From assembly GCF_003121485.1 (NCBI RefSeq), contig NZ_QAVX01000025.1, positions 1 through 64,000 on the forward strand: a stretch of DNA of 64,000 nucleotides, written 5' to 3'. A program made the position numbers and the translations under genes. Under the pieces are notes generated by a model, which was given only the letters and a program-made list of their open reading frames with translations, did not search any database and was not told where the DNA came from. Below are positions 618 through 42,299 of this stretch, piece after piece (the stretch's first letter is position 1; each line of letters starts with the position of its first letter). The stretch is from Dyella sp. C11. GTDB taxonomy: Bacteria > Pseudomonadota > Gammaproteobacteria > Xanthomonadales > Rhodanobacteraceae.

Positions 618-3600
618 CTAGTCCTCGAAACCTGCAGCGCGCGCATCTTGCCTGAGCGCATCCACATCGGCACGGCGTAGTAATGCATTCCGCCAGCATT
701 GTTGCTGGATGGTGTTGGATTCCACCAGCCATTGCGGTTTGCCGGCGACCCAGGCCGCGACAGCGGCACCATCCTCGTAGAGCACGCGCGTGCCGGCAAC
801 GGCGGGAAGCTTGTTGCCGGCGAGTACGGTGCCCACGAGGTTGAGTGGATCGGAGCCGCTGACGAGGACGAGTTCGCCTTGTGGTTCCTGCTGGCGAACG
901 GCGCGCAGTTTGGCGATGGCTTCGGGCAGGGCGAATTGCTCGCCGACCAGGCCTTCGACGAAACGGCCGCCGCGAATTTCGCCACGGGCTTCCAGGCGGT
1001 GATAGACGCGCAGGAGTTCGCGCCAGCTGGGGAGCCAGGGAGCTTCGCGTTCGAGCAGCTTCCAGAAGATGACGCCGTAGCGGCGCAGGAGGCTGCGGGC
1101 GATGTGTTCGAGTTGGTCGGGGTCGAGCTTTTGGGTTGAGATAGGTCGGGCTTTCTCGAGCACCCGACCTTTATCCCCTTCCCGGGACTCATCTGCCCTG
1201 CCGGGCATCTTCTCCCCGGAGGGGAGAAGATTTGCTCGGTTTGACCTTACTAGCGACCATCTGCCTGCGTCTTCGATGCCGGTGAGCATGTGGCGGCGCA
1301 GGCGGCGATGACGATGGGCGTCGCGTTTGGCGGCGGGTACGAGGAGCGCGCGCAGGCCGGCGAAGCTGTCGGCGGTGACGCGGCCGGCGGCGACGAGTTC
1401 GCCGAGGGCGTCTTCCAGCTCGGTGCGAAGCAGGTGCGTGTCGGTCAGCAGTTCGTCGAAGAACAGCGCGCCGTGATCGCGCAGTGCATCGAGCACGGCC
1501 TGGGCGCGCGACGATACAACGACGTCTTGCAGATTGGCTTCGGCATTCGCGGCTTGCGACCACACGGAAAGACTGCGGCGTGGCAACAGCACGATGGGTG
1601 TAGCGCGCACGGGACCGCCGCCGCTGCCATTGCCGTTGCGCAATCGGCTCCAGCTCACGCGGCCGGCGCGGATCTGTTCGTCCAGCCAGGTGATGGAGTA
1701 GTCGTCGATGCGCGTGGGCAGCAGTTCGCTTTCCCATGCGCCCGCGGCAGCTTCGAAGCCCTCCAGTTGCGTGAGCACGGCAGGCAGTGCGTCCGGGCCA
1801 CTGAGGCGTGCGCCGGGTGCGACGTGCTGCCAGTCGAACAGGAAACGCATCAGGTCGCGGCGGCTGACGGGTTCGATTTCACGACGCAGGCGACCGATGG
1901 TGTAGCGATGGATGCGCGCGAGCAGATGGCGTTCGCACCATTCCACGTCATGCGTGCCGGGCGTGAAATGGCCCTGCATGACGTAGCCTTCCGATTGCAG
2001 GCGCAGAAGGGTGAGGTCGATGTCGCTTGGCTCGACGTGGAGCACCGTCGCGAGTTGAGCGACGGTGATGGGGCCGGAGCCGGTGAGGCGGCCTCGAGTG
2101 AGTTCGAGGAGGGCGTCTTCGCGGGACCATCCTTCCGACGCGTATTCGGGTGGGGCGTCGATGGGTGGTTGTAGCGTGGCGGTCGGGTGGACGGCTTGCC
2201 ACTTGGGCAATGCCTCCGCAGTGACCCAAATGGCCAAAGAGCGGGACTGAGGCGAGATTGACCCCTCACCCCGGCCCTCTCCTCGCTCCTCAGAGCCGCG
2301 GCCATCCATGGCCGCTCCCCGCGTACCCCGGAGGGGAGAGGGAGTAAGGTGTGTCGCTCGATGGTTCTTTGCGAGACTCTTCAGCCACTCGTTCCAGCCT
2401 TCGTTCGCATCGGCTTCGCTTTGCTTGATGCCGCCCAGGATGGTGAGCGCCTCATGCATCTCATCTGCGCTGCGCACTTGCGGCCACGCTTCTTCGCGCA
2501 CGGAGGCGATGGCTTCCGGGTCCAGGCGGCCGAGATCGTCGGCGCTTTCCGGGTCGGACCAGCGGCGTGATTGCACGGCTCGCGTGCGGCGTTCTTCCAG
2601 CGGTGCGTCGTCGAGGTACGCGTACGGTGCAGCGGTGAGTACTTCGCCGGCCAGGGGGCTGGGCGCAGCGAGGTCGCGTGCGACGACGGCGATGTTGCCG
2701 TCTTCAAGCCCATGCAGGATATGCAGCAAGCCATCGACATCCATCGCTTCGCGCAGGCAGTCGTGCATGGTCTGGTTGACCAGCGGGTGGTCGGGAATTT
2801 CGCGCTCGCCGACAATGTTTTCCAGGCACGCCACCTGATCGGGAAATACGGTGGCGAGCAGGTCTTCGCTCTTCATGCGCTGCAATTGCGGCGGCACTTT
2901 CTTGCCGCCCTGGAAGCGCGGCAACGCCAGCGAGGTGGTGGCGTTCCAGCGCCATCGCGCGGGGAACAGCGGCGCGTCGAGCAATGCCTGCACCAGCACA
3001 TGTTCGGCGGTGTTGGAGTGCAGGTAGCGGGCCACTTCGTCCAGCGGGAAGCTGTGGCTGGTGGAAAGCGACAGTACGATCGAATCTTCCGTGGCCGCGG
3101 CCTGCAACTCGAAGTTGAACTGCCGACAGAAGCGCTTGCGCAGCGCCAGGCCCCACGCGCGATTGATGCGGCTGCCCCACGGCGTATGGATGATCAGCTG
3201 CGTGCCGCCTGATTCGTCGAAGAAGCGCTCGAACACCAGGTTGTTTTGCGTCGGCAGCACGCCGAGTGCCGCCTTGGCCGCCGCCATGTATTCGGCCAGC
3301 TGCTGCGCGGACGATTCGTTCATGCCCAGCGTGTGCATCAACCAATGCATGACGGCGGGAGTGCCACCATTGTCCAAGCGCGTGGCGATCTCTTCGCGCA
3401 GACGCGATACGCCGTGCGACAACTCGGCGCTGCGGCCCGGCGCTTCGCCCAGCCAGAAAGGAATATTCGGTGGCACGCCTTGCGCGTCTTCCACGCGCAG
3501 GCGATCGCGTTCCACACGCAGGATGCGGTAGCTGGTATTGCCCAGCTGGAATACGTCGCCGGCGAGGCTTTCCACGGCGAAGTCTTCGTTTACCGTGCCG

Positions 3601-5333
3601 ATGATGGTGGCCTGCGGTTCCAGCACCACCAGGTAGTCGGCGGTGTCGGGAATGGCGCCGCCGGATGTGACCGCCGTCAATCGTGCGTTGCGACGCGCAC
3701 GCAATTGTTTGTGTACAGCATCGCGATGGATATACGCACCACGCGGACCGTGACGTGTCGTGAAGCCGTCGGCCAGCATGCGTACGGTAGCGTCGAACTG
3801 TTCGCGCGTGAGGTCGCGGTAGGGATACGCGCGGCGTACGACATCGTAAAGCGCGTCTTCATTCCATTCCTGGCAAGCCACTTCGGCCACGATCTGTTGC
3901 GCGAGTACGTCGAGCGGTTGCGGCGGCTGGATAAGCGTGTCGAGTTCACCGCGGCGAACGCAATCGAGCAATGCCGTGCACTCCACCAGGTCATCGCGCG
4001 AGGTGGGGAATAGGCGTGCTTTCGGCGTGCCGTTCACCGCGTGACCGGAACGGCCGGCGCGCTGCAGGAAGGCAGCGATGGAACGTGGCGAGGCGAGCTG
4101 GCAGACGAGATCCACATCGCCGATGTCGATGCCCAGTTCCAGCGACGCGGTAGCGACCAGCACGCGCAAATCACCGCGCTTCAGGCGTTGTTCGGCGTCC
4201 AGGCGTTGTTCCTTGGCAAGGCTGCCGTGGTGCGCAGCGACGGCTTCCTTGCCAAGACGTTCGGAGAGATGGCGCGCCACGCGCTCGGCCATGCGCCGCG
4301 TGTTGACGAAGACGAGCGTGGTGCGATGCGACTCCACCAACTGCGCGAGGCGGTTGTAGATGAGTTCCCAGCAGTCGTTGGACATGACGGCTTCGAGGGG
4401 AACGGGTGGGACTTCGATGGCGAGGTCGCGTTCGCGGGTGTGGCCGACGTTGATGATGGTGACGGCGTCTTTTTCCTTCTCCCCGCCGGGGAGAAGGTGG
4501 CCCGAAGGGTCGGATGAGGGGGCGGGGCGTGCTTCGGTTTTTTTCGGAGCGCGCTTGTGGGTGGACTTATCGCCAGACTGGCCCCTCACCCCAACCCTCT
4601 CCTCGCTCCTCAGAGCCGCGGCCATCCATGGCCGCTCCCCGCGTACCCCGGAGGGGAGAGGGAGTTGAGCGTTGGCACCGACGAGGAATTTCGCGACGTC
4701 TTCGATCGGCTTTTGCGTGGCCGACAAACCAATGCGCAACAGCGACCGCTGGCAGAGTGATTCCAGTCGCTCCAGCGACAACGCCAGATGTGCACCACGC
4801 TTGCTCGATGCGAGCGCGTGGATTTCATCCACGATCACCGTGCGCGTGCCCTTCAACATCGAGCGGCCCGATTCCGAGCCAAGCAGGATGTAGAGCGATT
4901 CGGGTGTGGTGACAAGGATGTGCGGTGGTTGCTTGCGCATCAACGTGCGCTCGCCCTGCGGTGTATCGCCCGTGCGTACCGCCGTGCGGATGGCTACATC
5001 CGGCAAGCCCATTTTTTCGAGCTCCGCGCGAATGCCTTCCAGCGGTGCATCGAGGTTGATGCGGATGTCGTTGGACAGCGCCTTCAGCGGTGAGACGTAG
5101 ACCACGGTGGTCTCGTCGGGCAACGCACCGTCGTGCGCCACGCCCTCGCGCACCAGCGTATCAATGGCGGAGAGAAAGGCGGTGAGTGTCTTGCCTGAGC
5201 CTGTCGGCGCGGCCACCAGCGTGTGATGGCCTGACCGTATGGACGGCCATGCGGCTTTTTGCGGCGACGTCGGTTCAGGAAAGGTGCCCTGGAACCAGGC
5301 GGCGACGGCCGGATGAAAGTCGTGCAGGGGCAT
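618..5333 (-). CDS. lhr: Lhr-type ATP-dependent DNA helicase (long form) with repeat-derived insertions
   Basis: Superfamily 2 DNA helicase of the Lhr (long helicase-related) family, implicated in DNA repair. About 1571 residues from the start MPLHDFHPAVAAWF. Visible are Walker A APTGSGKT near residue 44, the DEIH box near 170, helicase C motifs (TASLELGIDIGDVDLV, QRAGRSGH), and the long C-terminal Lhr extension with LLRRYGVIFWKLLEREAPW. Three stretches look foreign to the family: residues about 222-288, 996-1025 and 1364-1394. Their DNA is palindromic intergenic-type repeat (see repeat entries). Two longer starts exist at 5375 and 5411, but the family start is closest to MPLHDF. No strong ribosome-binding site precedes any of them. 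Divergent from the receptor gene at 5535. Confidence 0.93.
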   Translation of the reverse strand: MPLHDFHPAVAAWFQGTFPEPTSPQKAAWPSIRSGHHTLVAAPTGSGKTLTAFLSAIDTLVREGVAHDGALPDETTVVYVSPLKALSNDIRINLDAPLEGIRAELEKMGLPDVAIRTAVRTGDTPQGERTLMRKQPPHILVTTPESLYILLGSESGRSMLKGTRTVIVDEIHALASSKRGAHLALSLERLESLCQRSLLRIGLSATQKPIEDVAKFLVGANAQLPLPSGVRGERPWMAAALRSEERVGVRGQSGDKSTHKRAPKKTEARPAPSSDPSGHLLPGGEKEKDAVTIINVGHTRERDLAIEVPPVPLEAVMSNDCWELIYNRLAQLVESHRTTLVFVNTRRMAERVARHLSERLGKEAVAAHHGSLAKEQRLDAEQRLKRGDLRVLVATASLELGIDIGDVDLVCQLASPRSIAAFLQRAGRSGHAVNGTPKARLFPTSRDDLVECTALLDCVRRGELDTLIQPPQPLDVLAQQIVAEVACQEWNEDALYDVVRRAYPYRDLTREQFDATVRMLADGFTTRHGPRGAYIHRDAVHKQLRARRNARLTAVTSGGAIPDTADYLVVLEPQATIIGTVNEDFAVESLAGDVFQLGNTSYRILRVERDRLRVEDAQGVPPNIPFWLGEAPGRSAELSHGVSRLREEIATRLDNGGTPAVMHWLMHTLGMNESSAQQLAEYMAAAKAALGVLPTQNNLVFERFFDESGGTQLIIHTPWGSRINRAWGLALRKRFCRQFNFELQAAATEDSIVLSLSTSHSFPLDEVARYLHSNTAEHVLVQALLDAPLFPARWRWNATTSLALPRFQGGKKVPPQLQRMKSEDLLATVFPDQVACLENIVGEREIPDHPLVNQTMHDCLREAMDVDGLLHILHGLEDGNIAVVARDLAAPSPLAGEVLTAAPYAYLDDAPLEERRTRAVQSRRWSDPESADDLGRLDPEAIASVREEAWPQVRSADEMHEALTILGGIKQSEADANEGWNEWLKSLAKNHRATHLTPSPLRGTRGAAMDGRGSEERGEGRGEGSISPQSRSLAIWVTAEALPKWQAVHPTATLQPPIDAPPEYASEGWSREDALLELTRGRLTGSGPITVAQLATVLHVEPSDIDLTLLRLQSEGYVMQGHFTPGTHDVEWCERHLLARIHRYTIGRLRREIEPVSRRDLMRFLFDWQHVAPGARLSGPDALPAVLTQLEGFEAAAGAWESELLPTRIDDYSITWLDEQIRAGRVSWSRLRNGNGSGGGPVRATPIVLLPRRSLSVWSQAANAEANLQDVVVSSRAQAVLDALRDHGALFFDELLTDTHLLRTELEDALGELVAAGRVTADSFAGLRALLVPAAKRDAHRHRRLRRHMLTGIEDAGRWSLVRSNRANLLPSGEKMPGRADESREGDKGRVLEKARPISTQKLDPDQLEHIARSLLRRYGVIFWKLLEREAPWLPSWRELLRVYHRLEARGEIRGGRFVEGLVGEQFALPEAIAKLRAVRQQEPQGELVLVSGSDPLNLVGTVLAGNKLPAVAGTRVLYEDGAAVAAWVAGKPQWLVESNTIQQQCWRNALLRRADVDALRQDARAAGFED
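1151..1240. repeat. Palindromic repeat element inside lhr (copy 1)
   Basis: The stretch contains TTCTCCCCGGAGGGGAGAA plus the flanking block GAGCACCCGACCTTTATCCCC. The same flanking block and hairpin recur between genes at about 27433-27500. It is translated as an in-frame segment of Lhr (residues about 1364-1394), reading LLPSGEKMPGRADESREGDK on the minus strand. Confidence 0.8.
2262..2344. repeat. 83-bp palindromic repeat inside lhr (copy 2)
   Basis: Starts CCCCTCACCCC and ends GGAGGGGAGAGGGAG, with an inner palindrome GCGGCCATCCATGGCCGC. It differs from the copy at 4582-4664 at only two visible positions. Lhr reads it as TPSPLRGTRGAAMDGRGSEE, a different frame from the other copy. Confidence 0.9.
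4470..4520. repeat. Hairpin repeat inside lhr (CCTTCTCCCC type)
   Basis: CCTTCTCCCCGCCGGGGAGAAGG followed by a GTGGCCCGAAGGGTCGGATGAGG block, a pattern typical of intergenic repeats in xanthomonads and pseudomonads. Here it is translated within Lhr, next to the 83-bp copy at 4582-4664. Confidence 0.8.
4582..4664. repeat. 83-bp palindromic repeat inside lhr (copy 3)
   Basis: Near-identical to 2262-2344. In Lhr it is read as LPLPSGVRGERPWMAAALRS, so the same DNA is open and used in two frames at two sites of one gene. It interrupts the segment joining the two helicase lobes, where family members normally run directly from LVGA into the INVGH...DLAIEVP block. Confidence 0.9.
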
Positions 5334-5534
5334 GGACTTAAGTGTGGCGCAACGCGCTCTCAGAGAGCGAGACATAGGGGCGCCAAGCGGTTTTCGCAAC
5401 GCTGGCCGCAAAAATCCGCTTCAGTCCCACACGAAATTACGTGACAATATCGTTAAGCCGCGCCTACAGAATGGTTTCTTGCGGCTCTCTTGCACCACTT
5501 CTTCCTTTGCTCTTCCACTCTCCGGGGAAACTCA

Positions 5535-27432: not shown

Positions 27433-27500
27433 CGAGCACCCGACCTTTATCCCCTTTTCGGGACTCACCCCAACCCTCTCCCCGAAGGGGAGAGGGAGTA
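27433..27500. repeat. Intergenic copy of the GAGCACCCGACC/CCCTCTCCCC repeat
   Basis: CGAGCACCCGACCTTTATCC followed by ACTCACCCCAACCCTCTCCC, then CGAAGGGGAGAGGGAG. The hairpin CCCTCTCCCC-GAA-GGGGAGAGGG is perfect. Same element as within lhr at 1151-1240. Lies between two converging genes and may double as a terminator. Confidence 0.85.
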
Positions 27501-33514: not shown

Positions 33515-33615
33515 ACTGGATCCCGGCCTGCGCCGGGATGACGGCTAAAAAATGAAACGTTGAGGCGAGCACCCGCCCCTCACCCCAGCCCTCTCCCCGG
33601 CGGGGAGAGGGAGCA
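33515..33615. repeat. Two short palindromic repeats (GGATCCCGGCCTGCGCCGGGAT and CCCTCTCCCC types)
   Basis: 33515-33542 is a single arm of the CATTCCGGCGCAGGCC family. 33570-33615 is a CGAGCACCCGCCCCTCACCC copy with the hairpin CCCTCTCCCC-GGC-GGGGAGAGGG. Both are dispersed families seen elsewhere in the window. Confidence 0.8.
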
Positions 33616-41014: not shown

Positions 41015-42299
41015 TGGGATAAAAGGGGTGGGTGTTTACGGTAGATCTTCGTTTTTCTTGCCTTAGCTTCTTGAAGGTTTTGCGCTTCAGCCTTCGCGCT
41101 CTCAAAAGCCTTCGGTACCCCCTCACCGTCACTCCCGCGAAGGCGGGAGTCCAGTGACTTCGCTTTTGTTTTTTGCGTTTTTGGTCGTTCGCAACTTCGA
41201 GCGCGTCCGCGATCTGGCCGCTCACGCCGCGGCGGCGTTTCGATCGTCTGCCGACGCTCGAGTCACTTTTCTTTTGCTGGCCCAAAAGAAAAGTAACCCA
41301 AAGAAAATGGCCTTCAGAGCCAAGGCTCCTAGCATTGCGATGGGATAAGCCCGAACGGTTGAGGTGTGTTGCTGCTTGGCAACCTCCGCCGAGACACAGC
41401 GGGTACTTCCAAGCGCTTCGCAACGCGCCGATGCCAAGAGGGCTTAAAACAGGTGGCCGCTACCCTTCCCGACCGCTCCGATAGTTCAAAGCGAACGCTC
41501 CGCTTCCCGACCGCTATAGTGGTGTAAAGCCCGCGCGCTGCTTTCCGACCGCAGGGTCGATTCAAGAGACTCGCTTCGCTTTCCGACCGAAATGGGCAAT
41601 GAGCTCCATTAAACACGCCATTGCGCAACCGCCGCTTTGGCTCCCTCTCCCCTCCGGGGAGAGGGTTGGGGTGAGGGGCCAATCTAGCCTCTCCCCTTCC
41701 AAGTGCTTCTTCTTGAAGGCAGGAGCTCAGCGACCTGCCCACGACGCGATGTGCAGCGCAGCTGCACGAGCCGTCCGCTCCGCTCTTGATCTTGGGCCCC
41801 CTGTGCGGCGGTGAGGGGTGGACGAGCAGGCCCCGCAGGGGTGCCTGGCAGGACGCCAGGCACTTTTCGTCCGGGCAGGAGCCCGGTCGAAAGGCCCGGC
41901 CGCCCCTCACGGACTGGCTGGGCTGAAAGCCCAGACAGCGCCAAGTGGGGGTGCCTTTTCTTTTGGTTACTTTCGACGCGAAGCTAGTCCCGTGGGATCT
42001 TTGGGCAAGCAAAGAAAAGTGACCCGGACTGCGGCAGCAGTTCGGAAGCCCGCGGCAGGCGAGCTAGGTCGAGGTAACGCTTCAACCGAGCGACAGAGCT
42101 AAGGCAAAGTCCCTGGATTCCCGCCTTCGCGGGAATGACGGTGAGGGGTAGAGACGTCGTCGTCAGAATGGCGGATAGAGACGAATAGAGATAGGAACGT
42201 CATCGCGACGATGCCGGTGAGAGATAGAAACGGTATCGCAAGCACCCACCCCTCACCCCAACCCTCTCCCCGGAGGGGAGAGGGAGCAGAGCATTGCGC
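41015..42299. repeat. 1.3-kb gene-free island of dispersed repeats
   Basis: Holds a CTCCCGCGAAGGCGGGAG copy (41130-41158), a perfect 12-bp hairpin ACTTTTCTTTTG/CAAAAGAAAAGT (41265-41294), a CCCTCTCCCC hairpin (41641-41680), composite copy B (41806-42105), a CTGGATTCCCGCCTTCGCGGGAAT copy (42113-42140), and a CACCCCTCACCCC hairpin (42246-42292). Frames remain open through parts of it, but they show no family features and read straight through the repeats, so no gene is called. Confidence 0.85.
41806..42105. repeat. Composite hairpin-rich repeat, copy B
   Basis: Same order of blocks as 33225-33487: CCTGGCAGGACGCCAGG, then CCGGGCAGGAGCCCGG, TTTTGGTTACTTTC, GGGCAAGCAAAGAAAAGTGA and TTCGGAAGCCCGCGGCA. 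Sequence has drifted but the hairpins are preserved by compensating changes (for example CATGGATG versus CAGGACG loops with matching stems). Confidence 0.8.

Follow-up and report, generated by a model that had tools for sequence, protein, structure and literature searches.

Short palindromes linked to an enzyme gene that they flank are known from REP and REPIN sequences and their RAYT (TnpA-REP) genes, together termed "REPtrons" (PMC3116915, PMC8266576, and PMC3733652). The Rickettsia palindromic elements (RPE) of Ogata et al. are palindromic repeats that lie in frame within protein genes (as cited in PMC3733652). Di Nocera et al. (2013) described REPs within genes for repair proteins and helicases, recB of two Xanthomonas having them at nearly the same position, and the tolerance of intragenic REPs in linkers and loops has already been suggested (PMC3733652).

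We investigated palindromes translated within the lhr gene of Dyella sp. C11, and these turn out to belong to a widespread repeat class that brackets genes for DUF559 endonucleases. The best reading is a REP/RAYT-like partnership on an unrelated nuclease, with copies in helicase loops (lhr, hrpA) overwritten by variants. Like REPtrons, the Dyella system has many extragenic short palindromes, inverted pairs (22 of 27 in the "-+" arrangement), and an associated enzyme gene with the palindromes on its flanks. Unlike REPtrons, the enzyme is a PD-(D/E)XK-type endonuclease of family DUF559 and not a HUH Y1 transposase, the RAYT (PF01797) genes of the genome are flanked by neither of the two element types described below (type 1 and type 2), and the constant GTAG/CGTC tag is absent from type 1. 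A tag search of the 97 type-1 copies returned no GTAG within 12 nt before the hairpin, and CGTC or GACG in, or within 8 nt of, 3 copies; in some other Dyella, one copy at the DUF559 locus is followed by GTAG. The REPs that Di Nocera et al. (2013) found within genes are of the GTAG/CGTC families, whereas the Dyella case concerns another element class, at three sites in 18 species, with repeated exchange of type. The resemblance to RPE proposed in the preliminary description of this DNA stands for the outcome, i.e., palindromes inserted in frame in protein genes (lhr and hrpA); unlike RPE, the Dyella elements are mostly extragenic and nuclease-linked.

The window, i.e., the whole stretch of 64,000 nt that was analyzed, is part of contig C17 in a 4.73-Mb draft genome (G000; both are working labels). 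The lhr ORF occupies 618..5411 on the minus strand (1597 aa from a TTG; Pfam DEAD, Helicase_C, WH_Lhr, DEAD_assoc, WH3_Lhr, and WH4_Lhr) and encodes an Lhr helicase that likely starts at the ATG at 5333 rather than at the TTG. It contains four elements at three sites. The linker between RecA1 and RecA2 holds a long 83-nt type-1 element (site 1a; 4582..4664, plus strand), with the tail CCCCTCACCCC and a hairpin with a 45-nt inner cassette, and a type-2 element (site 1b; 4476..4520, plus strand), with the hairpin CTTCTCCCC/GGGGAGAAG, a small hairpin, and the tail GATGAGGG. A second long 83-nt type-1 element, read in a frame different from that of site 1a, follows DEAD_assoc (site 2; 2262..2344, plus strand), and another type-2 element, identified by arm-pattern scan and folding, precedes WH4 (site 3; 1189..1229, minus strand). 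The preliminary description had noted one palindrome translated twice in two frames, and we found the same: the two 83-nt copies differ at 2 of 83 positions in pairwise comparison, and are read in different frames on the same lhr strand to give the peptides TPSPLRGTRGAAMDGRGSEERGEGRGEG and LPLPSGVRGERPWMAAALRSEERVGVRG. Its three repeat-encoded segments agree with our three sites but not with the number or kind of elements, because there are four, of which the smaller palindromes within the ORF at 4476-4520 and 1189-1229 differ in type from the 83-nt pair.

Two arm patterns matched the window 3 and 6 times, compared with means of 0.00 and 0.05 in shuffled windows. Three of the four lhr elements, at 4582-4664 (both strands), 4476-4520, and 1189-1229, plus one intergenic copy, were folded as single-stranded DNA; z was between -2.16 and -3.54, and folding was equally good in 0 to 6 of 200 shuffles. 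Pfam placed DEAD at residues 48-237, Helicase_C at 354-457, DEAD_assoc at 719-921, WH3 at 1182-1256, and WH4 at 1432-1512, so the segments fall into the linker between RecA1 and RecA2, behind DEAD_assoc, and directly ahead of WH4; the alignment to the solved Lhr structure 7lhl is interrupted at 246/320 and 999/1063, i.e., at the first two of these loops. The earlier statement that the insertions lie at loops is supported. An Rfam scan of the lhr region returned no family above cut-off, and one chance miRNA match below it. The proposal of a consensus whose openness particularly suits it to entering genes was not upheld: five of its six frames are open, as is usual in a genome rich in GC (windows drawn at random from this sequence have on average 4.88 open frames if 38 nt long and 3.93 if 83 nt long, with 69% and 31%, respectively, reaching five).

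The 38-nt type-1 element consists of CCCCTCACCCC, two bases, a 10-bp hairpin CCCTCTCCCC/GGGGAGAGGG, and AG. A pattern search for copies with the exact left arm found 97 in the genome, representing 43 distinct sequences, and none with the reversed control pattern; 94 copies are 38 nt long and three are 83 nt, two of these three being in lhr. The 83-nt form is the 38-nt form plus 45 bases that make an inner hairpin. Among Dyella copies (37 distinct matches), this inner hairpin shows compensatory changes in 2 of 7 stem pairs (16 cells, a value reached by 0 of 500 shuffles), the count of covarying pairs itself being matched by 354 of 500 shuffles; the covariation fits selection on, or copying through, the folded form. 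The same 45-nt cassette is also found inside type-2 elements of lhr in G007 and G011. The strict type-2 pattern misses the GTGGCCCGAAGGG form and, therefore, its count covers one variant only; it matched in 7 of 20 Dyella genomes, and there solely inside lhr. A looser type-2 scan of 98 stretches of the C11 genome (266,288 bases including overlaps) found none outside lhr.

Elsewhere in the window lie a short 38-nt type-1 element (33576..33613, plus strand; hairpin of -11.6 kcal/mol), the left arm of a further copy with one mismatch (27461..27481, plus strand; arm only), and, from the arm-pattern search, an inverted pair of short type-1 elements (41641..41678, minus strand, on the left; 42249..42286, plus strand, on the right) that encloses a repeated island of 570 nt without an evident gene (41679..42248, no strand assigned), which resembles 14 other islands within such pairs. 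Genome-wide, neighboring type-1 copies <1500 nt apart (n = 27) are arranged as "-+" in 22 cases, "--" in three, "++" in one, and "+-" in one, i.e., mostly with tails inward, as around DUF559. The 22 "-+" pairs enclose 15 mutually similar islands of 470-711 nt, one DUF559 gene, and six stretches of 61-247 nt, so that most inverted pairs in the genome surround islands and not DUF559. The islands (41641-42286 in the window and 14 other loci) consist of composite repeats and resemble each other, like non-autonomous units. No transposase gene was evident between the inverted pairs in the islands read (few loci, the others being covered by sequence comparison).

As the preliminary description held, the repeats are dispersed and, as far as screened, mostly lie outside recognizable genes. 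At least 4 of the 97 type-1 copies are in genes (lhr and hrpA). In hrpA, which encodes an HrpA-type helicase (G000:C23:138552-141256), an inverted type-1 pair is read through in an open stretch of 901 codons, at aa 423-434 and 462-473 of that stretch, between HA2_C and OB_NTP_bind (OB fold). Two strict coding screens caught one and two element sites and both missed lhr site 2, whereas a looser screen (stop-free over at least 200 codons) included 24 of the 97 elements in 26 distinct stretches. Twenty of the 26 were scanned with Pfam (the DUF559 locus is among the six left out), and four gave hits and 16 none. Among the four, hrpA has domains on either side of the element; the OEP, abhydrolase, and PhoU stretches have it N-terminal to the domain, where it could perhaps precede the true start. 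With 20 of 26 open stretches scanned, the remaining type-1 copies look extragenic. Two orthologous intergenic places retain type 1, sometimes altered, in 16 of 20 and 8 of 16 Dyella species read, and the species without it have a different palindrome instead; at one of the two, the substitute resembles the GTAG-bearing repeat beside a RAYT of the C11 genome. Neither place, filled or replaced as it is, showed a clean empty site or a target duplication of the kind expected for a MITE. DUF559-type and other palindromes replace each other between species at these intergenic sites (L301-L320, L321-L336), as if competing for one slot.

The tie to DUF559 could not be seen from the window alone. The genome has a single DUF559 gene (C23:160749-161060; 140.1 bits against PF04480, Pfam cut-off 20.6), which lies exactly between an inverted pair of short type-1 elements with tails inward. 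Of 20 Dyella genomes, 17 have the same bracket at a single orthologous locus, with the gene truncated in G016 and carrying an internal stop in G001 and G014; of the other three genomes, G005 and G013 have lost DUF559 and G017 retains a relic. Seven further Dyella DUF559 loci have other palindromes on both sides (judged by eye). No type-2 element was found around Dyella DUF559 genes; type-2-like elements bracket DUF559 in L182 (Pseudoxanthomonas) and L174 (a proteobacterial MAG).

We compared the inverted similarity of left and right flanks of DUF559 genes against 200 dinucleotide shuffles, a locus passing when 0 of 200 were as good. Flanks that were too short (L110, L197, and L210) or contained a run of N (L194) were left out. 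Of the loci from the same taxonomic class, 22 of 28 passed (29 taken, one without enough flank). Among the named DUF559 loci, which are the best 80 of at least 572 and hence not a random sample, 69 of the 78 tested passed, compared with 2 of 148 shifted pseudo-gene controls from the same loci; many in this set are metagenome bins whose taxonomy may be wrong, and three are Dyella already counted. In a plasmid collection, from which 13 of 30 hits were chosen for variety, 8 of 13 passed, including Deinococcus (3 of 3, new phyla being already reached with two), Synechocystis, and Pseudanabaena. The loci that did not pass numbered 9 of 78 in the named set, 6 of 28 in the class, and 5 of 13 in the plasmid collection, the last being E. 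coli, Photobacterium, Shinella, A. brasilense, and Picosynechococcus (3 of 200). A simple scan detected a hairpin in 61 of the 69 passing named repeats, and a strict pattern detected a GGG(T/A)G(A/G)GGG tail towards the gene in 29 of these 61, sometimes with a second small hairpin between. Sequences differ among DUF559 loci, and the plan of hairpin plus tail recurs. At L345, on pSymB of Sinorhizobium meliloti, long near-identical inverted flanks surround a DUF559 gene near an IS4-like element.

The DUF559 profile matches the solved endonuclease-like structure 3HRL (E = 1.6e-41) and, weakly and not significantly, the mobile-intron protein 3R3P (E = 0.047). 3R3P is a homing endonuclease with a Vsr fold, and E. 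coli Vsr is among the known proteins closest to the Vsr-like DUF559 family; no intron or intein was seen in the Dyella case. Caulobacter VsrA, which shares the domain family with the Dyella protein, is held responsible for the DNA-damage response in vivo in a methylation mutant and is treated as a mismatch-repair protein (PMC12907096); the string "palindrom" is absent from the main text of that paper. In Legionella, a segment with a transposase and DUF559 is listed among mutational and recombination hotspots (PMC12308824). Among the open-licence papers searched, PMC12306157 included, we found none linking DUF559 to palindromes.

We lean towards an explanation in which the palindromes are nuclease-linked, such that DUF559 recognizes or cuts the hairpin and repair spreads or converts the elements, some of them landing in lhr loops. 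The elements are each a GC-rich hairpin with a tail (G-rich on one strand), and the likely founder copies are the inverted pair around the DUF559 gene, whose product is PD-(D/E)XK-type and Vsr-like, with tails facing the gene. The founder pair would belong to the enzyme gene and the dispersed copies would be its offspring, by analogy with REP and RAYT (PMC3116915 and PMC8266576). The nuclease would recognize the folded hairpin plus tail and cut or nick at or near it, and repair of the break would copy the element elsewhere or convert one element into another, so that elements would multiply between genes and rarely land inside them. Bracketing, orientation, breadth, and dispersal of the palindromes, and the repeated changes at lhr sites, are what we observed; what we infer is the role of DUF559 as the agent, its action on the hairpin, and conversion as the route.

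The main alternative is that DUF559 is a passenger, with host processes (slippage, gene conversion, and replication or RNA intermediates) or another enzyme spreading the palindromes and DUF559 surviving best as cargo between two of them. We consider this unlikely, although several results are in its favor, the first being the 15 of 22 inverted pairs that enclose mutually similar islands without DUF559. Copy number within Dyella is also unlinked to an intact DUF559 of this type (14 intact vs. six broken or absent by our reading, P = 0.59), G013 and G017 having 75 and 71 copies despite a lost and a relic gene, respectively. This lack of a drop in copy number on DUF559 loss fits slow turnover and, equally, a passenger nuclease. 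Codiversification is weak as well: the similarity of DUF559 and that of its palindromes are correlated with r = 0.18 (a value reached in 1 of 2000 permutations), whereas the correlation between classes lacks significance (197 of 2000). Against a passenger, most of the tested DUF559 loci have the bracket, which is gene-specific relative to the shifted controls, and the presence of DUF559 is predictive of the dispersed palindrome in a set of 185 genomes from the taxonomic class: a strict type-1-like pattern, whose reversed control gave 0 in all 185, occurs in 25 of the 38 that have DUF559 (E 1e-20) and in 20 of the 147 that lack it (odds ratio = 12.2, P = 5e-10), or in 24 of 37 with DUF559 when the C11 genome itself is excluded. 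Four genomes (G064, G066, G112, and G129) have 30-44 copies of the pattern without a DUF559 match at E 1e-20, through loss, divergence, or another partner. Our confidence that the nuclease drives the spread is slightly lower because of the missing copy-number effect within Dyella and because only two stem pairs covary.

It is improbable that the elements are ordinary REPs or REPINs mobilized by a RAYT (HUH Y1 transposase). They are similar to REPs in size, copy number, inverted pairs, and intergenic habit, and two RAYT-family (PF01797) genes are present in the genome, but neither RAYT locus contains an exact-arm type-1 copy and the type-2 scan of both was empty. GTAG or its complement is inside 3 of the 97 type-1 copies and within 8 nt after the hairpin in 1 of 97. 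Moreover, RAYT L061 (G000:C45:15738-19058) is flanked on both sides by a different, GTAG-bearing repeat with the sequence TGTAGGAGCGC, so two systems, one of RAYT and REP and one of DUF559 and palindromes, seem to coexist in this genome. We dropped RAYT as the mobilizer on account of these two PF01797 loci, which lack type 1 and type 2.

Comparison of lhr among relatives bears on a further alternative, i.e., that the segments are ordinary functional linkers, repetitive by chance, with the palindromes incidental. A long lhr match was found in 19 of 20 Dyella genomes, G000 included, the one without being G004 (an 86% complete draft). Most of the 18 intact Dyella lhr ORFs hold palindromes in the same three loops, and type and length change repeatedly. 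Site 1a is occupied in 13 of 18, with a remnant in G017; site 1b holds type 2 in seven, a type-1-like element in six, and nothing clear in five; site 2 is occupied in 16 of 18 (empty in G016 and G018), the long form being present in G000, G002, G006, G008, and G017; and site 3 is occupied in 16 of 18 (unclear in G010 and G016). The linker between RecA1 and RecA2 has no element in G010 and G018. The minimum number of state changes on the lhr tree is eight at site 1a, eight at 1b, five at 2, and five at 3, and the eight at site 1b compare with a mean of 8.8 under shuffled labels, i.e., clustering no stronger than shuffled. Site 3 is read in two frames among species because element and flank lengths differ by compensating amounts. 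Conservation at fourfold sites is 0.77, 0.78, and 0.69 in the element regions vs. 0.67 in the rest of the gene, with 95% of control windows <0.786; conserved element DNA as proof of conversion or selection was therefore dropped, being not clearly above the rest of the gene.

Outside Dyella, lhr was read in 27 of 38 genomes with a match, and one of these (L135) was misread, leaving 26. Only one of the 26 readable loci, L122 of the same family, has comparable elements, and in it each of the three sites is filled. Site 2 of L123 holds a possible remnant, and the remaining Lhr from outside the genus, L146 and L147 aside, are short at these places. L146 and L147, from other orders, have another short insert at site 2, the peptides of which (SRLRGND and LPRNDE) resemble a translated other repeat family. 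The preliminary description had proposed a comparison of Lhr among relatives, and it shows the segments to be missing from nearly all Lhr outside Dyella and overwritten or exchanged within the genus. Because comparable elements are nearly absent outside Dyella, the lhr loops are permissive places that were filled mainly in this lineage and have been rewritten since. Functional linkers would agree with the filling of the same sites in most Dyella and with the in-frame lengths in 18 of 19, but not with types, lengths, and frames that differ at the same site in sister species, with the empty linker of G010 and G018, or with comparable segments in 1 of 26 readable loci outside the genus, and we regard this explanation as very improbable.

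The frame is kept open through the elements in 18 of 19 Dyella lhr. The earlier claim that no element interrupts the frame thus holds for the lhr of C11, but not for G013 (L048/L051, a one-contig genome), in which lhr is split into three frames with frameshifts at two elements, reflecting either decay or sequencing error, which are indistinguishable here. Sequencing or assembly error as the source or misplacement of the lhr copies themselves is scarcely credible: repeats are error-prone and the G013 frameshifts fall at elements, but the majority of 18 separate Dyella genomes likewise have elements at these sites and an open frame through them.

Returning to the DUF559 nuclease as the agent, three flexible lhr loops would have been hit, probably early in Dyella history, after which selection would have kept the total length of lhr in frame while elements were lengthened by the inner cassette, swapped in type, or lost. 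hrpA is a second helicase gene with the same outcome. The observation that palindromes are translated in lhr is, therefore, confirmed, on ground wider than lhr, and its original interpretation is supported in part. In a broader and more tentative form, for which we see nearly even chances, DUF559 endonucleases, which occur in many phyla, may be the engine of an HUH-independent palindrome system, a restriction- or homing-like nuclease that spreads the folded palindrome it recognizes along the chromosome and that, in Dyella, repeatedly rewrote the Lhr loops and entered HrpA, adding peptide to conserved proteins.

These results offer a candidate role for DUF559, a family often named just "endonuclease domain-containing protein", and a possible origin for a common type of GC-rich bacterial palindrome. 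If the nuclease spreads the palindrome, such repeats need no transposase, and the system would allow a direct test of REP-like persistence. The lhr sites present repeats rewriting protein loops again and again in one genus, and lhr makes it possible to ask by experiment whether palindromes that enter genes shape the proteins, a question of long standing. Our study points to a possible and little-noticed route, based on a nuclease, by which repeats spread within genomes and now and then enter proteins.
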